Assembly: GCA_001692895.1 (NCBI GenBank)
Contig: KV748191.1
Span: 1,860,001-1,924,000, forward strand
DNA from: Cenococcum geophilum 1.58
Taxonomy: Eukaryota > Ascomycota > Dothideomycetes > Gloniales > Gloniaceae
Direction: 5' to 3'
DNA length: 64,000 bases
A program made the translations under genes and the position numbers. The notes beneath the pieces are model-generated. The model saw only the letters and a program-made list of their open reading frames with translations, made no database searches and was not told the DNA's origin. Positions 29,701 to 38,750 of this stretch are shown here, one piece after another; within the stretch, counting starts at the first letter, position 1, and every line of letters starts with the position of its first letter.

Positions 29701-32502
29701 CTATAGTAATTGGTTGTAACTAGCTATAGCGTCCTCCTCTTATTTACACGGCGGTAGGACTAGAAAGAATACCTAGAGTAGTTCTTTTGTAATATTATGG
29801 TTCTTTATAACAACCTCTCCCTATCCTCTAGCCTTCTTAATTAGCGGTATTCTAGCGAATGCGGATATAGCCTACGGATTAAGGTATTTCGACGCTTTTT
29901 ATATATTATTACTATTACTAAGGAATTTGTCCTAGTAGAGCTTCCTATATCGCCGAATAGTTCTATAAAAGAGCTTCTTTACTCTTGCTGCGATATTATA
30001 TAGTTTAGGGTCGTCCCTTTCTTATCTCTATATTATACTATTCCTATTCCTTTAGTATATATATAACTTTCTTAGCGTTATAAGGTCTTCGTTCCACCAT
30101 CTTTTTATATATAGTAATGGCTTAGCCCGCTAGTAGTATGCTTTAAGGGCTTTATTAACCTACCTATTAAGGCAGTTAACCATTTCGTCTATATCTTTTA
30201 TAGGGAATCTTATCTCTTTCTGTTGCTCCATGTCTTCTTAAATTTTATTCTAGTTTGTATTCTTAATAAGTAGCCTCTCCTAGCTTTTTTATATGTTTAT
30301 ATTAACCTAAAAGCTAGTATAGATAGCTCTATAGTCTAACCCGTACTTATATTCCCAGATAGTATACTTTACTAGTTTACTCGCTAGGCCTAGGGTTATA
30401 AGTATAAGGTTAATTGTTAATATCTGCCCCGCGTTACTTTTAAATATAAGTACTCCTACTAGAAGTAGGCTTTAGAGTAACTGGTTTACTATAAAGTTAA
30501 TAATTGGCGCACTTTCTTTTTGCGTTAATATGGTACTAATATAACTTTCTTTCTATAGCGGATTATGCCAATTAAAGTTGCCTGTAATTACTACCTTGGT
30601 ATATAGGTCGTGTAATAGTTTACCCTAGATTAGACTATTAATTATCTCCAGCCTACTAGAGAGCTCCTTTAGGTTCTCTTCCTTAGTTTTTTTTAAATAT
30701 CTGTTTGGAATATATACTAACATAATTATAAATCTCCTTTAGCTAACGTGCGCTATTACTGCCGTAATGTCTACTAAATCTACCTATAGCTGTATAGCTA
30801 CTAGCTCTTTAGACGCCTAGATATATAACTTAACTAGGGGATACCGCTACTACCTACCTATTAGGATAAACTTTATCTACTAGGGGTTTAAGCTAGCTAG
30901 TACTACTTCCCTATCTAAGAGAAAGTAGTAAGGCTCCTGGCCTAGAATAAAGTGGAAGTCTACTAGCGCTTCGTCGTTATATAGCATATGCTGCGCTTTC
31001 CTATACTTCTTTATATTCGCCTAGAGGATCTAAAGTTCTCTATTTATAACGCTATTGTATAAAAATCCTATTTATTTCTTTCCTATATACTAGGCATTTA
31101 TGGTATAAGGCTTAGTAAGGACCCTAATAGTTTACGTAGTGTAGATTAACCGTCTTATACTAGAGATAACCTTCCCGCCTACATATTTCGTATATATTAG
31201 GTCGCGTATAGTTTTTAGCCCTATATCTAAACCTTCTGCATTTATAGTATGCTATAAGGGTACATTGTTCCTTAAATAGCGATATAATAATCGCACCTTC
31301 CCTAAATAATACGTTGTTTAACGTAAGCAGCTTCTCTATATCCTCTTTTATTACCACTTTAATAATTACTAATATATACTAGCCGCGCGGCCTTAGTTAT
31401 CCGAGCTATCTTATTATATATACCTCTACCCTATTCTCTACCCTAAAGCGCTTTATAGCTAACTTACTTACTTTTCCGCTATTAATATCTATTGCTAAAG
31501 GTACTTTAACCTAGTCCGCCTTAACTATATACCACTTAGGTCTAATAAGCCTTGCCCTAAAGATATATAGTTTAAGCCATTAGGTAGTTGTCTACCTAAA
31601 CGCAGCTTTTTTATTTTTTTCTACTAAGAATCTAATAATGCTTACGCTATCTCTTATTTACTATACACGGAAGTCCTTAAGTATAGCTCCTATAAGCCTA
31701 TCTATATCCTTTATACCTTATATAATAGTTTACTTTACTACTTTAATAGTAGCTACCTTCTCTATTATCTCCTTACCTGTTTAGCTAATATCTATCACTA
31801 GCTGCTAATTGGGTTCTTTAGAGTTCCTAGCGTTTATTATTTATAGCTAAGTTACCTTTACCCCTACTATACCTCTATTAGCCGCTACTAACGCCTATAA
31901 TTATATTGGAGCTAAAAAAATATTTAGTTGCGCTTATAAGGACCAGATAGCCTTTTAGAGTTTAGCGTTTTACTTTTTAAGGCTTTACTATTCTAATTTA
32001 ATGTCTATTAGGTTATTTCTAATACTCTTAATAATACTATTCTAGTTTATGATGATATTACTCTACTATGCTATAGTTTCTTTAAGGCTTTTAATAAGTT
32101 AATAAAATTTGTTATAATTAATACCTTTTTCTTTATATTCGGGTAAGGTAGAGGCTTTTATTATAGGGAATAGGGGTAGTATATACTGTGTAGCTTATAG
32201 TCCGGTTTATAGTGCGGTTATCTACTATTTAAACTGTGCTAATCTTTAGGATCGTGTTTTTAGCGACTGCTAGGCCTCTTATACCTTCGCGCTTAGTTTC
32301 TTTATACGTCTTAGTAGAGCTGCTGGCGGTTTTAGAGGTGGTGTTACTAATACGCGTTTAGGGGTTGAAGTAGCTATTAGGGCTCCGGGGCTTCGTTTGG
32401 TGGGCCGTAGGGGCCGCCTTATAGCGGGAACTAGCTAAACGAAAGACCAGGATTCGATTAAAAGAATGTCCGAGATGAATATCCTCCTTTTTCAAAAGTT
32501 TA
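26792..32502 (-). mobile_element. LINE copy E, full length
   Basis: This is a full-length copy of about 5.7 kb whose 3' microsatellite follows TAGACCCCTA at 26791. Minus-strand landmarks are the RNase H motif near 27775-27820 (GHLGFIGN kept, E to K), the RT motif near 28961-28986 (FVNNYS) and the gag knuckle relic within 31160-31357. The 5' end is near 32502. After about 30 bp of filler the right flank again reads CTAGACCCCC (32531), so this copy seems bracketed by a short target-like sequence. It is non-functional. Confidence 0.91.
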
Positions 32503-32539
32503 GTCCCCTCTTGATCACACGTATAACCCCCTAGACCCC

Positions 32540-33010
32540 CATAAGAGTGTGGCCGGAGCGGGTCGGCCGCCCTCCCTGCTAGCGTGCCATGCGGAACATT
32601 TCAGCGCTGCCTGACTTGTTGACGCACCTGCTGAGGTACCGGTGGTGACAAACCTGTTACCAACTATAGCACCGAAATGTAACTGACTTTTGAGAGGGAG
32701 GATCGGAGGAGGGTATGATGGGGGAGACGGGTCGAACCTAGGTCTCTTTATGCGATCCCATGGAATCTGCTTGTATGATTAGCGGTATAGCTAGGAATCC
32801 GAAACGGTTTGTTATGTTAGGCAGTACCTTAGAAAGGTAGAGCGGCTTTCCTCAAGCTGCGGCAGCACAGCGGGAAATTTTTGTTTAGTCAGCAACCCTA
32901 TTTGCACTATTTACCCCATCCTTGGTAAAGAGCGAGCGGGCTTGTAACGGTGCGAGTTGAGTTAGTTTAACACAATACAAATCTAGGTATAGGTAGGATC
33001 ACAATTTATA
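32540..33010. other. Boundary DNA right of the LINE array
   Basis: GC content rises sharply here. No reading frame or repeat that I recognise is present. This is the edge between the RIP-mutated block and the mixed zone that follows. Confidence 0.5.
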
Positions 33011-33011
33011 T

Positions 33012-33611
33012 TTACTGAACTATACTCGGTACTATCCAACTAGCCGTTGATTGTAAGTCTGATCTAACAGAATTGAGCAAATATGTCCCGACACCAGGCA
33101 TCAAAAATTGAGGTTTCTTCCTGCAAAGGACCTCTATCGCGCGTCTGAAAAAAACCCGGGACCCATCAAGATTCTCAAGCTGAAAGCGTACAGAGGAGAT
33201 GAGGAGATAGATTACGCTGTAGGTAAAGACTTCTTTTTCCAGGGGGTTATAAGCCCTGTTCTGAAGGAGAGCAGCATTCCAGTTCCTTTCCGCTTTAGGT
33301 AACCGGGAGATGCGCGCCCTGGCGATTAGCGTTCGTACATGCCCAACTCTTTCGTTTATGTCTGGCTTAGCAATCTTGCTGTAGATGCCCAACAGCTTAC
33401 TGATTATGCATTTGGCTCTGTTAAGGTGTTCTTGTCTAATTTCGATCTTAATTAAGGAGAGCAGTAATCGTTGGAGCCCTTGTGAAGGCTTGCCGCATGC
33501 CCTGATACAGCTAAGCTCTTGTTGCACAATCTCTCTTCCATTGTTCTGGTGGATGTAGTTCAGTTTACAGTAGGTGTATTGTGGCACGGTTAATAAAGAT
33601 AAATAATCCAC
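33012..33611 (-). pseudogene. TPR-like fragment of a fungal NOD-like receptor
   Basis: An open frame of 199 codons encodes helical-hairpin repeats resembling tetratricopeptide repeats, with stretches such as LNRAKCIISKLLGIY, ERNWNAALLQN and LDGSRVFFRRAIEVL. The pattern fits the C-terminal sensor part of fungal STAND/NLR proteins, whose role is ligand sensing in incompatibility or defence. It directly follows, on the same strand, a NACHT-side fragment (33640-33965) in another frame. The first ATG is therefore unlikely to be a real start. I infer a receptor relic; a small live TPR gene is possible but less likely. Confidence 0.55.
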
Positions 33612-33639
33612 ACCTGATAGATTCTCTCTTCGAGTCGTA

Positions 33640-33965
33640 TGGGGTCGAGTTTAGCCTTTCCTAGCGACTTGGACTGCGTCGACGTGGCTATTCCGAGAGC
33701 CAACGCCATTTCCTGTACGGTTAGGGGACGACGTGCCCCAACCACAATCTGCAGAATCTTCTTTACATTGCCTCTCCGCTCCTCGCCGACACGACTTAAA
33801 ATTTTCTGGTAGGCGTCTTTAACAGTAGAGGGGAGTGACTTAATGCTTCCTTAGGTCGCAAACAGTTCTAGTAAGTCTTATATATACCCTGAATAGCGAG
33901 ATAAAGCCACAGATACGTGCGATACTGCATCTCTAGTAGTTTAGTCTCCAGTTGGTCCTCTATAT
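33640..33965 (-). pseudogene. NACHT-distal/winged-helix fragment of a fungal NLR
   Basis: The minus strand at 33650-33850 reads SLPSTVKDAYQKILSRV and then VKKILQIVVGARRPLTVQEM, a hallmark of the region after the NACHT NTPase in fungal HET-E/HET-D-type receptors. Farther 5', in a shifted frame, about 33880-33965 reads LLEMQYRTYLWLYLAIQG, also typical of that region. At least one frameshift separates the parts, and the P-loop portion is missing, since a SEC13 relic begins at once upstream. This is a truncated pseudogene. Stops at its end separate it from the TPR fragment. Confidence 0.75.
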
Positions 33966-34036
33966 AACAATCCAATTTTAAGTCCGTCGCGAGTATTACC
34001 ACTCGCATTCAGATAACCAAGTTAATCTCTTAGTGG

Positions 34037-35025
34037 ATTTAGTTATTCTCCTCTTTACCCCCTTAAGATCCTCCTTCCATAACGTAACTTTATTATCCCC
34101 ACTACTTACAGCCAGCACATTCCCACTTAGACTCCAACTCACGCGCTAAGTAACCGCCTCAAACTCCAGCGTTTTCGCAAGCGTCCAATCCCCTACATTC
34201 TAAGCGCTCATATTTAAGAATGTCCAATCTTTACGGTCTTATCCTAGGACGCGGACGCGATGTATAATTTTAAGAGTAGGGTGGGACTCTATACCACGTC
34301 GCGGACCCAATCTGTATGTCCCTAGGGGAGCGTAACGACGTTCTCATAGCTGTTTATAAAGGAGGAGAACTTCTAGATCTTTACGGTATTATCGCTCCCA
34401 CCCGTAATAAATCGCCTAACCACGCCCGTATTTATCCCCGCGTCTTTCCTTACGATCTGCCCGCACTAGGCGCCTAACTCATAGCATTAATACCTATCGC
34501 GTGCGCGGGAAAGATTGTGGTTTTCTAATTACCATCTTTGTCGAAGGAGAGGACACTTACGTTTCCATCAGAGGAGGCGTATGTGAGTAGGTAGCCTAGG
34601 TTGGGCGGCAACTAGGAGACCATATTTACGGAGGCGGTGTAGATTGTCGAGGCGAAGACTTAGGTCTATGTGATTACGGGTGTTGACCTAGTACTAAGGA
34701 GGTCTGGGAGGGCAATTCGCGGTAAATATATACGCGGCCGTCGTAGCTAGAGGAGGCCAGAAGCGTGCCATAGCGGGGGTATACCTAGGAGACGTACCAG
34801 ACTGCGCCTTTGTGTCTATAAAGGAGGAATATATAAGTATAGCATATTTTTAAGGAGTAGGAGAAATACCCTAGGCGAGCTCTTCTTAACCTTTTAGCGT
34901 CTCTATTAAGCGGTATTAGTCTCCATCTATCTTAAAGATTTTAATCATTTTATTACTAGAATATATGGCCGGCCGGCGGCCGTAGTAATTAAGGGCTGTA
35001 TTATACTAGATAATATTAGCGTATA
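34037..35025 (-). pseudogene. SEC13: RIP-mutated SEC13 copy
   Basis: Most of the WD40 protein Sec13 (COPII coat outer layer and nuclear pore) can be read on the minus strand. In order: NYYGRRPAIYSSNKMIKIF (about 34945-34998), KGAVWYVS and LASSSYDGRVYIYRE (about 34710-34795), LGYLLTYASSDGNVSVLSF, FPAHAIGINAMS, then GGSDNTVKI, GHTDWVRDVV, ASASxDKTVKI, and [19 protein letters not shown] near 34080-34140. Conserved Trp positions, as in VSW, MSW and VKIW, are TAG stops, and Gln or His codons are hit too: G-to-A and C-to-T changes as in RIP. At least one frameshift or intron lies between GRS and the GGSDN repeat. A working SEC13 must exist elsewhere. Confidence 0.9.
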
Positions 35026-35549
35026 GGATTCTATAGACACCTGGGCTTAGCTTGGGAGGATTATATTGTCCTTGCCTACGGCGGGTACTTATAATTATAT
35101 TATTATAACCCGAACCCGTAATAACCTGCGCCTATTTATACCCAAATTAGCTATAGAGTCCTCTTCTTATATAATATTACCTCCGCCAGGCAACCTGGTA
35201 CGTACTATTTTAAGAGTTATTAAATTAATTAAAACTGCGCACAGACGAAATTTGTTAGGAACCGTTATAACTATACCGACCATTATAACCCTATCGCTTA
35301 CGTTATAGTTTTAGTATTTAATAATTTTTTTTATAATTTTATAATTTTTTATTAAAAGGTTATTAAGTTATAGGCGGTATACATATAAAAAGGTATGTTT
35401 TGGTGAGGAAAAGCGTGCACGAGCGGTCGCGTGCATGAGATGATCACCTACGTTATGAAAACGACGAGCAGTGGGACCCGCCTCGCCCCGCAAATCTTTG
35501 TGAGATACCTATTGAATATCAACACCTCATACCTGTACGTTGTCTCATT
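35026..35549. other. AT-rich tail of the repeat zone and SNX3 upstream region
   Basis: 35026-35390 is AT-rich with RIP-like composition. A short open frame on the plus strand (35066-35308) has no recognisable similarity and I do not call it a gene. From about 35400 base composition becomes normal, so the SNX3 promoter must be short and sit within about 150 bp of the repeat-type DNA. Confidence 0.5.
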
Positions 35550-36094
35550 ATGCAATCCCTCCCCGAAGCTCGCTCACAATCGTACGAGGAGCTTTACGGG
35601 CCCCCGGAGAACTTCCTGGAGATCGAAGTAAGTTTCCTGACTCCCTTCAAGACTCTCGGCCTAAATCTTTCAGGTGCGCAATCCAATGACGCATGGAATG
35701 GGCCGTGGCATGTACACAACCTACGAAATCGTCATGCGGACGAACATCCCCGCTTTCAAGCTGAAGTCCTCCTCTGTTCGTCGCAGATACTCGGAATTTG
35801 AGGCCTTTCGTGACATTCTGGAACGCGAGTCTGCACGCGTCACTATTCCACCACTCCCTGGCAAAGTCCTCACCCATAGATTCTCAGACGATGTCATTGA
35901 GCACCGCAGAGAAGGACTTCAGCGTTTCCTCCAAATCGTCGTTGGTCACCCTCTCCTACAGACCGGCTCAAAGGTTCTTGCTGCCTTCGTTCAAGGTGAG
36001 TTTCCCTTTGTTTGATCATCAGATCCTCGAGATCTAAAGCTAATTCCCATATTCTAACTCAATAGATCCAAACTGGGACCGACACGCCTGGTAG
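35550..36094 (+). CDS. SNX3: Sorting nexin-3 (PX-domain, retromer-associated)
   Basis: Three exons, 35550-35627, 35674-35995 and 36066-36094, give 142 residues, the usual size of fungal SNX3/Grd19. Introns have GTAAGT...CAG and GTGAGT...TAG ends. The PX domain spans about residues 22-133. The PI3P-binding signature is visible: RRRYSEFE (62-69), the proline loop PPLPGK (85-90) and RR at 104-105. The protein ends DPNWDRHAW, as in the family. Family role: binds PI3P on endosomes and sorts cargo back to the Golgi with retromer. The ATG was chosen because [19 protein letters not shown] matches SNX3 N-termini. It is the first intact gene to the right of the repeat block. Confidence 0.95.
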
Positions 36095-38750
36095 ACGCTT
36101 TCAGGCACAACGGATGCCATCTCAGTATGACCTCTCAATTTGTCGCCAGTCCCAACCAATCACACCACCATCATGAATCATGACCTTACGACGACTGGGA
36201 AGAGGGAGAGGGCCAGATACGATGGCGTTTGCATTTGGGAGGGATTTTTGAGCGTTTTGCGGCCATATCCACGGCGGTTTTTCCTGCCTCCTTCGCAATG
36301 TGCCCATTTCCCTGAACCCACTGGAATTCTCCATCCACGAATAGTTTTTGCCTGTTTCTTCACACTCCTATCGGATTCACTGCAATCGTTCTGTTTTGTT
36401 TGTTTCGCACTTTATCTCTAGAAATTTCTGCATCTGGGAATATTTTGCTAGCTTCACCTACACTTGTATTCTTGCCATGGCTTCCTTTCTGCGTGTGAGC
36501 TTGGCTGGGATATGCTTCTTTCTTCACTTGTACTCAAAATACCCTTCTTCTTGGAAGCTTAGCTCTTTGAAGGTAACTGCTACTGCTTCTCAACCGTATC
36601 AGTCTCTCGCCTGACTAGTAAATGACGCAGCATGGCCCTTGCCTGCCTGCATTCGACTACCGTTCTAGTTTTATCGGCCCACAAATTCAGTCACACCCGG
36701 GCAACAAACAACTCTCTACTCTCAAGCGGCAGTCTCTTACCCTCTATTTCTCAGAAACGTCATATTCTCTTTCATTACTTCCCCTTTCAGAGAGCCGAGC
36801 AACTGCTCAGATATAAATACAACAGATCAACAAGCTTGGGAATGATTTCAAAACATCAACTTTCAATTTACCTCCTCTCCTCGCCTTTGTACAACCACAC
36901 AGCACCGCTACTCTTCCTATTCCTCTCATCTGCAGAACTTCAAGCACCTCAGGTCACTATTAATCTCTACCATACATCACTATGAAGCCGTTGCGAGCGA
37001 AGTGAGAGAAGAACTCATCAAATCATCTTACACTCCTCGGATTTGGTCATATATTTCATGCCAGGGGTTTTGGATATTGTAAGCCGCTTCTAAATGTCTC
37101 TAGATCTTCATGAATCAGCACTGTAAAAGAGAGGCAACTCCTAGCATTTGAGACATCTCGACCGGCCATCTACTTCTGGTGATTTCGAGAGCTTGTGCTT
37201 GCGACTGGGCCAACTTTGGGCGGTCAGCTCACCGATACCTCGTCCGACATGACCTCCTGTCTAGAAGAGAAATTCTTGGAAATTACTCCAGAGATAGTCA
37301 TAGCAGCTATTACGGACATCGTCCTCAGCAACTTCTCATCTTGCCATGCAAATTTTTACAGCAACACGAAACCGACCAGATCCATAATTCCTTCTTCAAC
37401 AATTTCTCACTTTATCATGCACAATTTTACGGTAACATGAACTGCTCAGATCGGTGAAACTTCTTGCAGAAACTTCTTAGTACACTATACGGAACTTCAC
37501 GATTACAAAGGCAACCCAAATGCACAACTTTTCCTTTCTCAAATTTTATTGATGGTCCATATTTTTTCTCCTACAACATTGATATAGTGGGTTTTATCTT
37601 CGTGATATGATAGTCATGCTTTTCCTGGCGGAGAAGTCTTTCAGTCTTTTTGTCTTTCAAAGAACCATAACCCCATCGCCACCCTCGAGACACTACATCG
37701 GGAGGAATAACTCTCTACACCATCTCCTCACATCATTTCGGGATCGCGATCATTCTCATCACTCCTTTCTCCCCAGATCCTCGCTGTGGAGTAGGTCGAA
37801 AATGGTTGGTTTCATCGCCACCATTAAGACACTACATCGGGAAGAACAACCCTCTATGCAATCTCCTCACACCACCCTCGAGATCACGATACATTCCCAT
37901 CACTCCTTTCTCCTCAAATCCTCGTTGTGGAGTGGGTCGAAAAGGATTGGGCACATTTCGCTGTTGGAATTTCTTATCTGTGGATCGTTTTCTCTCTACA
38001 AAAGTGGAAGTATCTTCGACGCGTTATGGGTGCTGCTTTATCTAGATGATCTCTTGTCAGGATTACCTTTGATGGAATGATGGACGGGGTCGGTCATGTA
38101 CATAGTTGAATACAGCATCCACCCTCACCGCTCAAACTGATCATATGCGTCACCGCCTCCCCGTGCTGTCCGCCTGCTTCCTCCATCCCTGCCTGTACTC
38201 CTCACGGCTTTATAATGAGGCACAGCTAGCATGCATCGGTAGCATGCATCGGTAGCTCGATATGATGCACAGCGTTAAGATGTGTTTGACCCCTTTCAGA
38301 ACCCTTTGAGAAACACACTCGAATGTAAGGGTAGCGACCAACACCCTTATGAGGCTGTGTGAGGGTGGTTCATTTTAGAAATTCCGTACACCTCTCCGCT
38401 GTGTGAGTTGATGTTTGATGAAAAGCACCAGTTAATTCGCCAATCCAAAGTGGTCGGTCCCGAGAATCAGATCCGTGGCAAGGGAAAAGGCAAGCCACGG
38501 GGAAGAGCGAGAGGTTTTACAGACATCTCGCTCCAAGCCACAGCACCCCGGAACCCGGCTGAACAACATCACACTCCCAGCAGACCCACTCTCCGCACAA
38601 GCAAGCAGGTCAGAGAGTACCAGAGCACCAGCACAGTACCAGCAGAAAAAACTCTAGCAGCTCGATTCATAACTAAAACTGCCTACCCCTTCCCTCCATA
38701 CCACTGTATACCACTCACAAACACCAGACGCCAGACTCCACGCCAGGATA
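36095..38750. other. Long intergenic region between SNX3 and EOS1
   Basis: About 2.7 kb downstream of SNX3 contains several short frames on both strands, none with recognisable protein sequence or conserved splice pattern. It includes a tandem duplication at 37675-37950 and a small direct repeat of AGCATGCATCGGT at about 38227-38253. A 195-codon plus-strand frame at 38408-38995 is low-complexity and overlaps the antisense of EOS1, so I do not call it. Confidence 0.5.
37675..37950. repeat. Tandem duplication, 139-bp unit, two copies
   Basis: Units 37675-37813 and 37814-about 37950 share ATCGCCACC, ACACTACATCGGG, CATCACTCCTTTCTCC and GTGGAGT(A/G)GGTCGAAAA in the same order. They differ at scattered positions, so the duplication is not recent. 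Confidence 0.85.

Follow-up and report, generated by a model that had tools for sequence, protein, structure and literature searches.

A relic of a SEC13 gene lies on the minus strand of the window, a stretch of 64,000 nucleotides of Cenococcum geophilum 1.58 (C16:1860001-1924000, forward strand). Its coding pieces are recognisable from 35131 to 34044 and represent nearly the whole SEC13 protein in broken frames; the minus-strand reading begins with AQVITGSG... at 35131 and passes through several frames to a C-terminal end near 34060. The true start of the feature is about 100 bases past position 35025, where the preliminary description had placed its end. The features of the locus are listed below, with exons and introns numbered after the working (live) SEC13 gene of the same genome.

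33600-35440, no strand assigned: tract affected by repeat-induced point mutation (RIP), with a sharp right limit at about 35.4 kb and a left limit fading at about 33.55 kb
33614-33993, minus strand: NLR-type gene fragment inside the RIP tract, with a DUF7069 match and a weak winged-helix match under the cut-off
34044-34226, minus strand: relic sequence past a frameshift, corresponding to the end of exon 7 plus exon 8, without live intron 7
34227-34420, minus strand: relic covering the remainder of exon 6 and the greater part of exon 7, without live intron 6
34453-34665, minus strand: relic of the opening part of live exon 6
34666-34694, minus strand: 29 bases in the position of live intron 5, putatively a remnant of it
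34695-34815, minus strand: relic covering live exons 4 and 5, without live intron 4
34816-34889, minus strand: retained intron matching live intron 3 in position, its donor one base short
34890-35005, minus strand: relic of live exon 3
35006-35092, minus strand: retained intron matching live intron 2 in position, between coding pieces, GT..AG by eye
35093-35131, minus strand: relic of live exon 2 (AQVITGSGYNNII), preceded by an acceptor TAG, beyond the coordinates of the preliminary description
35228-35440, plus strand: short multi-copy repeat, present at 51 other places and in part like one end of an inverted-repeat element
35550-35997, plus strand: PX-domain gene, which we take to be SNX3-like, with two exons, no stops and native composition

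In bases 1-32000 of the window G+C is 35% and the RIP indices are strong (1.72/0.47), native DNA extends from about 35.4 kb, and RIP-type DNA appears again from about 62.7-63 kb. The genome searched comprised 177.19 Mb in 162 contigs. An entry for C. geophilum in PMC5445492 gives 177.57 Mb and lists RIP-like mutation as 'Probably'; PMC5023957 gives 178 megabases with 81% repeats, and the term 'repeat-induced' is absent from its main text.

The closest match of the relic is the SEC13 family, and not Seh1 or other WD40 proteins. When the broken frames were joined (X at stops) and compared with solved SEC13 chains, E values ranged from 9e-55 to 6e-27 and 20 SEC13 entries stood at the top of the match list, against 1e-20 for the best other WD40 protein and 2e-8 for Seh1. 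The reading frame is interrupted by 12 stops and by frameshifts, which marks the locus as a relic of the family rather than a working member. The first exon with the start codon was not found for the relic; the acceptor of intron 1 is probably kept.

The preliminary description had supposed that a live SEC13 must exist elsewhere, and such a gene is present at C9:851820-853124 on the minus strand, where seven modelled exons running from 853124 to 851820 join into one open frame behind a putative start exon. It has seven introns, with a GT donor shown for six of them and the first intron provisionally placed. Its RIP indices are native (0.84/1.08), so the suggestion that RIP may also have damaged the original gene did not hold. 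A DNA search of the genome with the live gene matched itself alone at E <= 0.001. A set of open frames at L014 1015-1930 on C9, presumably resembling the peroxin PEX20, stands head-to-head with the live gene, about 0.2 kb from its putative start.

Alignment with the live gene defined the character of the damage. Twelve of the 288 codons read in the relic are stops (10 TAG and 2 TAA), and the claim that conserved Trp codons had become TAG was borne out, since 7 of 16 aligned live Trp codons are TAG in the relic; 6 are still TGG, 3 are other codons and none is TGA. The preference for TAG over TGA (7:0) gives a two-sided binomial P of 0.016, and the six remaining TGG codons indicate that RIP was incomplete. 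The other five stops face live codons for Ser, Tyr, Thr, Gln and Pro, so lost Trp codons do not account for all the stops. Relative to the live gene, and with only those positions counted, on either strand, whose context base is equal in both copies, C-to-T changes were found at 39 of 66 CpA sites and at 36 of 227 other C sites (Fisher P 2e-11). The latter comprised 10/73 at CpC, 11/85 at CpG and 15/69 at CpT, and the reverse-direction control at CpA gave 3/30. Over positions 34037-35025, TpA/ApT is 1.50 and (CpA+TpG)/(ApC+GpT) is 0.59; none of 255 overlapping 989-base stretches of native DNA (36001-62389) is so extreme by one index or the other. The relic DNA therefore carries CpA-focused C-to-T change on both strands, an excess of TpA and a loss of CpA and TpG, as expected of RIP. 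Sequencing error as the source of the stops was rejected, the pattern being too context-specific.

To measure the depth of divergence, all relic bases that CpA-directed RIP could have produced were set aside, leaving a RIP-immune set. At these positions the relic and the live gene are identical at 64% of aligned nucleotides (421/656), with 134 transversions, and at 66% of protein residues (108/164 codons). Immune identity by codon position was 151/214, 171/224 and 99/218 for positions 1, 2 and 3, respectively, position 3 being lower (P 3e-12), in an alignment whose protein guidance somewhat favours matches at positions 1 and 2. Fourfold sites agree in 32 of 67 cases, against 0.34 by chance, and 167 immune codons gave dS 1.92, dN 0.33 and dN/dS 0.17. 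Neutral decay after gene death lengthens the branch of the relic to some extent. Silent sites are near saturation between the two copies. From the identity by codon position, together with dS and dN, it follows that most of the divergence accrued while both copies were constrained proteins, before RIP.

The structures of the two copies also differ. Live introns 4, 6 and 7 are missing from the relic, and introns 2 and 3 and the remnant of intron 5 are present. When C9:843000-861000 was compared by BLAST with window positions 31501-36500, all matches fell within the SEC13 relic, and the duplicated flanks envisaged earlier are thus absent from these stretches. Of the original proposal, a segmental duplicate erased by RIP, the SEC13 pseudogene and its CpA-directed RIP stood; the duplication did not, given the 64% immune identity, the introns and the flanks. 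RIP in Neurospora needs roughly 80% identity. An identity of 64% falls below that level, and the live gene can hardly have been the RIP partner of the relic.

Protein searches of the genome gave no third SEC13; only the gene on C9 and the relic stood out. The relic matched nothing besides itself in the genome DNA at E <= 0.001, in a search that detected short RIPped repeats but did not reach the relic from the live gene, so that a partner as distant as the live gene would escape it. Beyond this genome, a pattern search of genome_contigs for SEC13 relatives gave 7 matches, of which 0 were confirmed; a second gave 100 matches with 2 confirmed, both of them distant bacterial WD40 loci at 24-29% identity; and a search of viral_contigs confirmed none.

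The affinity of the relic was examined at the immune codons, where its protein identity is 108/164 to the live gene, 105/164 to Myceliophthora SEC13 and 88/164 to yeast; the live and Myceliophthora proteins agree at 128/164. At 41 unmasked sites where these two differ, the relic agrees with the live gene at 12, with Myceliophthora at 5 and with neither at 24 (12:5, P 0.14). A likelihood test with five taxa (relic, live gene, Myceliophthora, yeast and human; 189 columns) gave AU values of 0.46 for the relic with the live gene, 0.49 with Myceliophthora and 0.72 outside both; the last is the tree of highest likelihood, with a lead of only 0.4 units. The relic is less likely to belong with yeast (0.16) or with human (0.07), but AU rejects neither placement, and the human placement is excluded by two of the other tree measures. 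Since the identities to the live gene and Myceliophthora are nearly equal and the five-taxon tree has no preferred position for the relic, its standing as a second gene of this lineage falls short of proof.

These results very probably describe a second SEC13, long split from the live gene and constrained for most of that time, that was killed by RIP. Such a gene would have separated long ago from the genome's working SEC13 and evolved mostly as a constrained protein gene before its death; it may once have been functional and later redundant. CpA-directed C-to-T mutation would then have made TAG out of Trp TGG codons and, probably, out of some Gln CAG codons. Where this second SEC13 came from can be read in two ways. 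Chances are about even that it is an ancient paralogue, a second SEC13 of the lineage recently lost through RIP, a reading favoured by the signature of constraint prior to death, by the intron places 2, 3 and 5 held in common with the live gene, and by the leaning of the diagnostic sites towards that gene; however, that leaning is not significant, and one Sec13 orthologue is typical of eukaryotes where PMC11858755 treats the matter. Horizontal acquisition from another fungus, perhaps together with the NLR fragment, beside SNX3, with the arrival becoming multicopy and RIPped until one copy was left, is the rather unlikely counterpart. It would fit the nearly equal distance of the relic from the live and the Sordariomycete (Myceliophthora) SEC13, the marginally best likelihood of the tree with the relic outside both, the intron set that differs from that of the live gene, and the neighbouring NLR fragment, which also has no close relative in the genome (best match elsewhere 42%). 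However, the grouping of relic and live gene is not rejected, the relic sides with the live gene at more diagnostic sites than with Myceliophthora and with neither at most of them, and an ancient paralogue accounts for the same data.

We give each of the remaining explanations very little credence. A recent segmental duplicate of the C9 gene, RIPped together with its flanks and keeping the mutations only here, would explain the SEC13 identity, the RIP-type stops and the live copy elsewhere; it is highly improbable in view of the 134 transversions among the immune bases, the fourfold identity of 32 of 67 against 0.34 by chance, the three differing introns, the flanks that are not common to the C9 stretch and the unRIPped state of the live gene. 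By these tests of identity outside RIP sites, flanks and intron set, the relic is not a recent segmental duplicate. Gene capture, with the relic as cargo of a small inverted-repeat element ending at 35304-35440, is every bit as improbable: pieces of the repeat do occur elsewhere as inverted pairs (in L035, for example, the ends 319-480 and 998-1147 match at 82%), but within 31001-35600 no inverted partner was found at E 0.01, a separate comparison gave just 5 short pairs of 14-24 bases, and a second copy of the cargo was not found. A reverse-transcribed copy of SEC13 mRNA, RIPped later, is less probable still; the missing introns 4, 6 and 7 are what it would leave, but introns are kept at places 2 and 3 with a remnant at 5, and the silent sites are near saturation. 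A variant in which partial exchange with a cDNA took place long ago in the source lineage is possible.

The RIPped relic is ordinary in kind. It shares CpA-directed C-to-T change, TAG stops and TpA excess with the RIP-inactivated pseudogenes and repeats of filamentous ascomycetes, but differs from them in that no close duplicate was found in the assembly; its unusual point is that the SEC13 lineage of the dead copy had long been separate from the living one. The Sec13 paralogues of Trypanosoma brucei likewise represent more than one SEC13 lineage per genome, but both are described with roles in the part of PMC11858755 that deals with them, whereas here the second copy is dead. We found no paper that brings together repeat-induced point mutation, SEC13 and pseudogene. 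A gene copy hit by RIP is not necessarily a recent duplicate of the gene that it resembles, and the sites that RIP cannot have made distinguish a recent copy from an old one, in this case with constraint first and RIP afterwards. Should the ancient paralogue be the true source, the fungus long kept two SEC13 genes; should the source be foreign, a core COPII/nuclear-pore gene would have undergone an unusual transfer between lineages and then been erased by genome defence.

What drew RIP to the relic was considered separately. It is about an even bet that RIP leaked from the neighbouring repeat at 35228-35440. The share of TpA drops with growing distance to the left of the repeat (rho -0.72, P 0.001, 17 bins), a trend confounded by the introns; when the gene is divided into thirds, CpA conversion (19/27, 12/21 and 8/18) shows a mild fall only. 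Against leakage, the repeat is merely about 210 bases long and there is no RIP at all in SNX3 on its other side, although selection could explain the clean state of SNX3. RIP may instead have acted on a duplicate of the relic itself, since lost, which we hold to be somewhat less probable than even; it fits the missing partner in the assembly equally well. Some other cause is improbable. The strongly RIPped block lies to the left of weakly affected DNA at 32.4-33.0 kb (substrate index 0.82-1.06, product index 1.0-2.0), which is followed by near-native DNA at 33.0-33.55 kb; because of this intervening DNA, leakage from the large block is unlikely unless the piece was inserted later. In the portion of PMC2973834 concerned with leakage, RIP is described as spreading into the single-copy AvrLm6 of Leptosphaeria maculans, and at least 930 bp of leakage in Neurospora is cited. 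The two cases are alike in that a single-copy sequence stands beside a multi-copy repeat with damage that seems to fall with distance, but here the sequence is a long-diverged SEC13 relic and not an effector, and there is no damage on the far side of the repeat.

The 51 other matches to the repeat at 35228-35440, at 70-92%, all fall on 35228-35446, and repeat pieces elsewhere form inverted pairs roughly 0.4-1.3 kb apart, like the ends of small DNA elements. No close second copy of the SNX3-like gene was found in the genome, nor any close relative of the NLR fragment. Between this fragment, which lacks its upstream part, and the end of the SEC13 relic there are only about 50 bases (33993-34044), and the arrangement suggests a rearrangement breakpoint at 33993-34044. 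The left flank (33000-34036) has one DNA match, 71% over 243 bases at C10, which falls outside the RIP-affected part. A nearly unRIPped open frame of 199 aa at 33012-33611 on the minus strand has no Pfam match at E 1 and shares 49% protein identity with C10:307 kb (L023).
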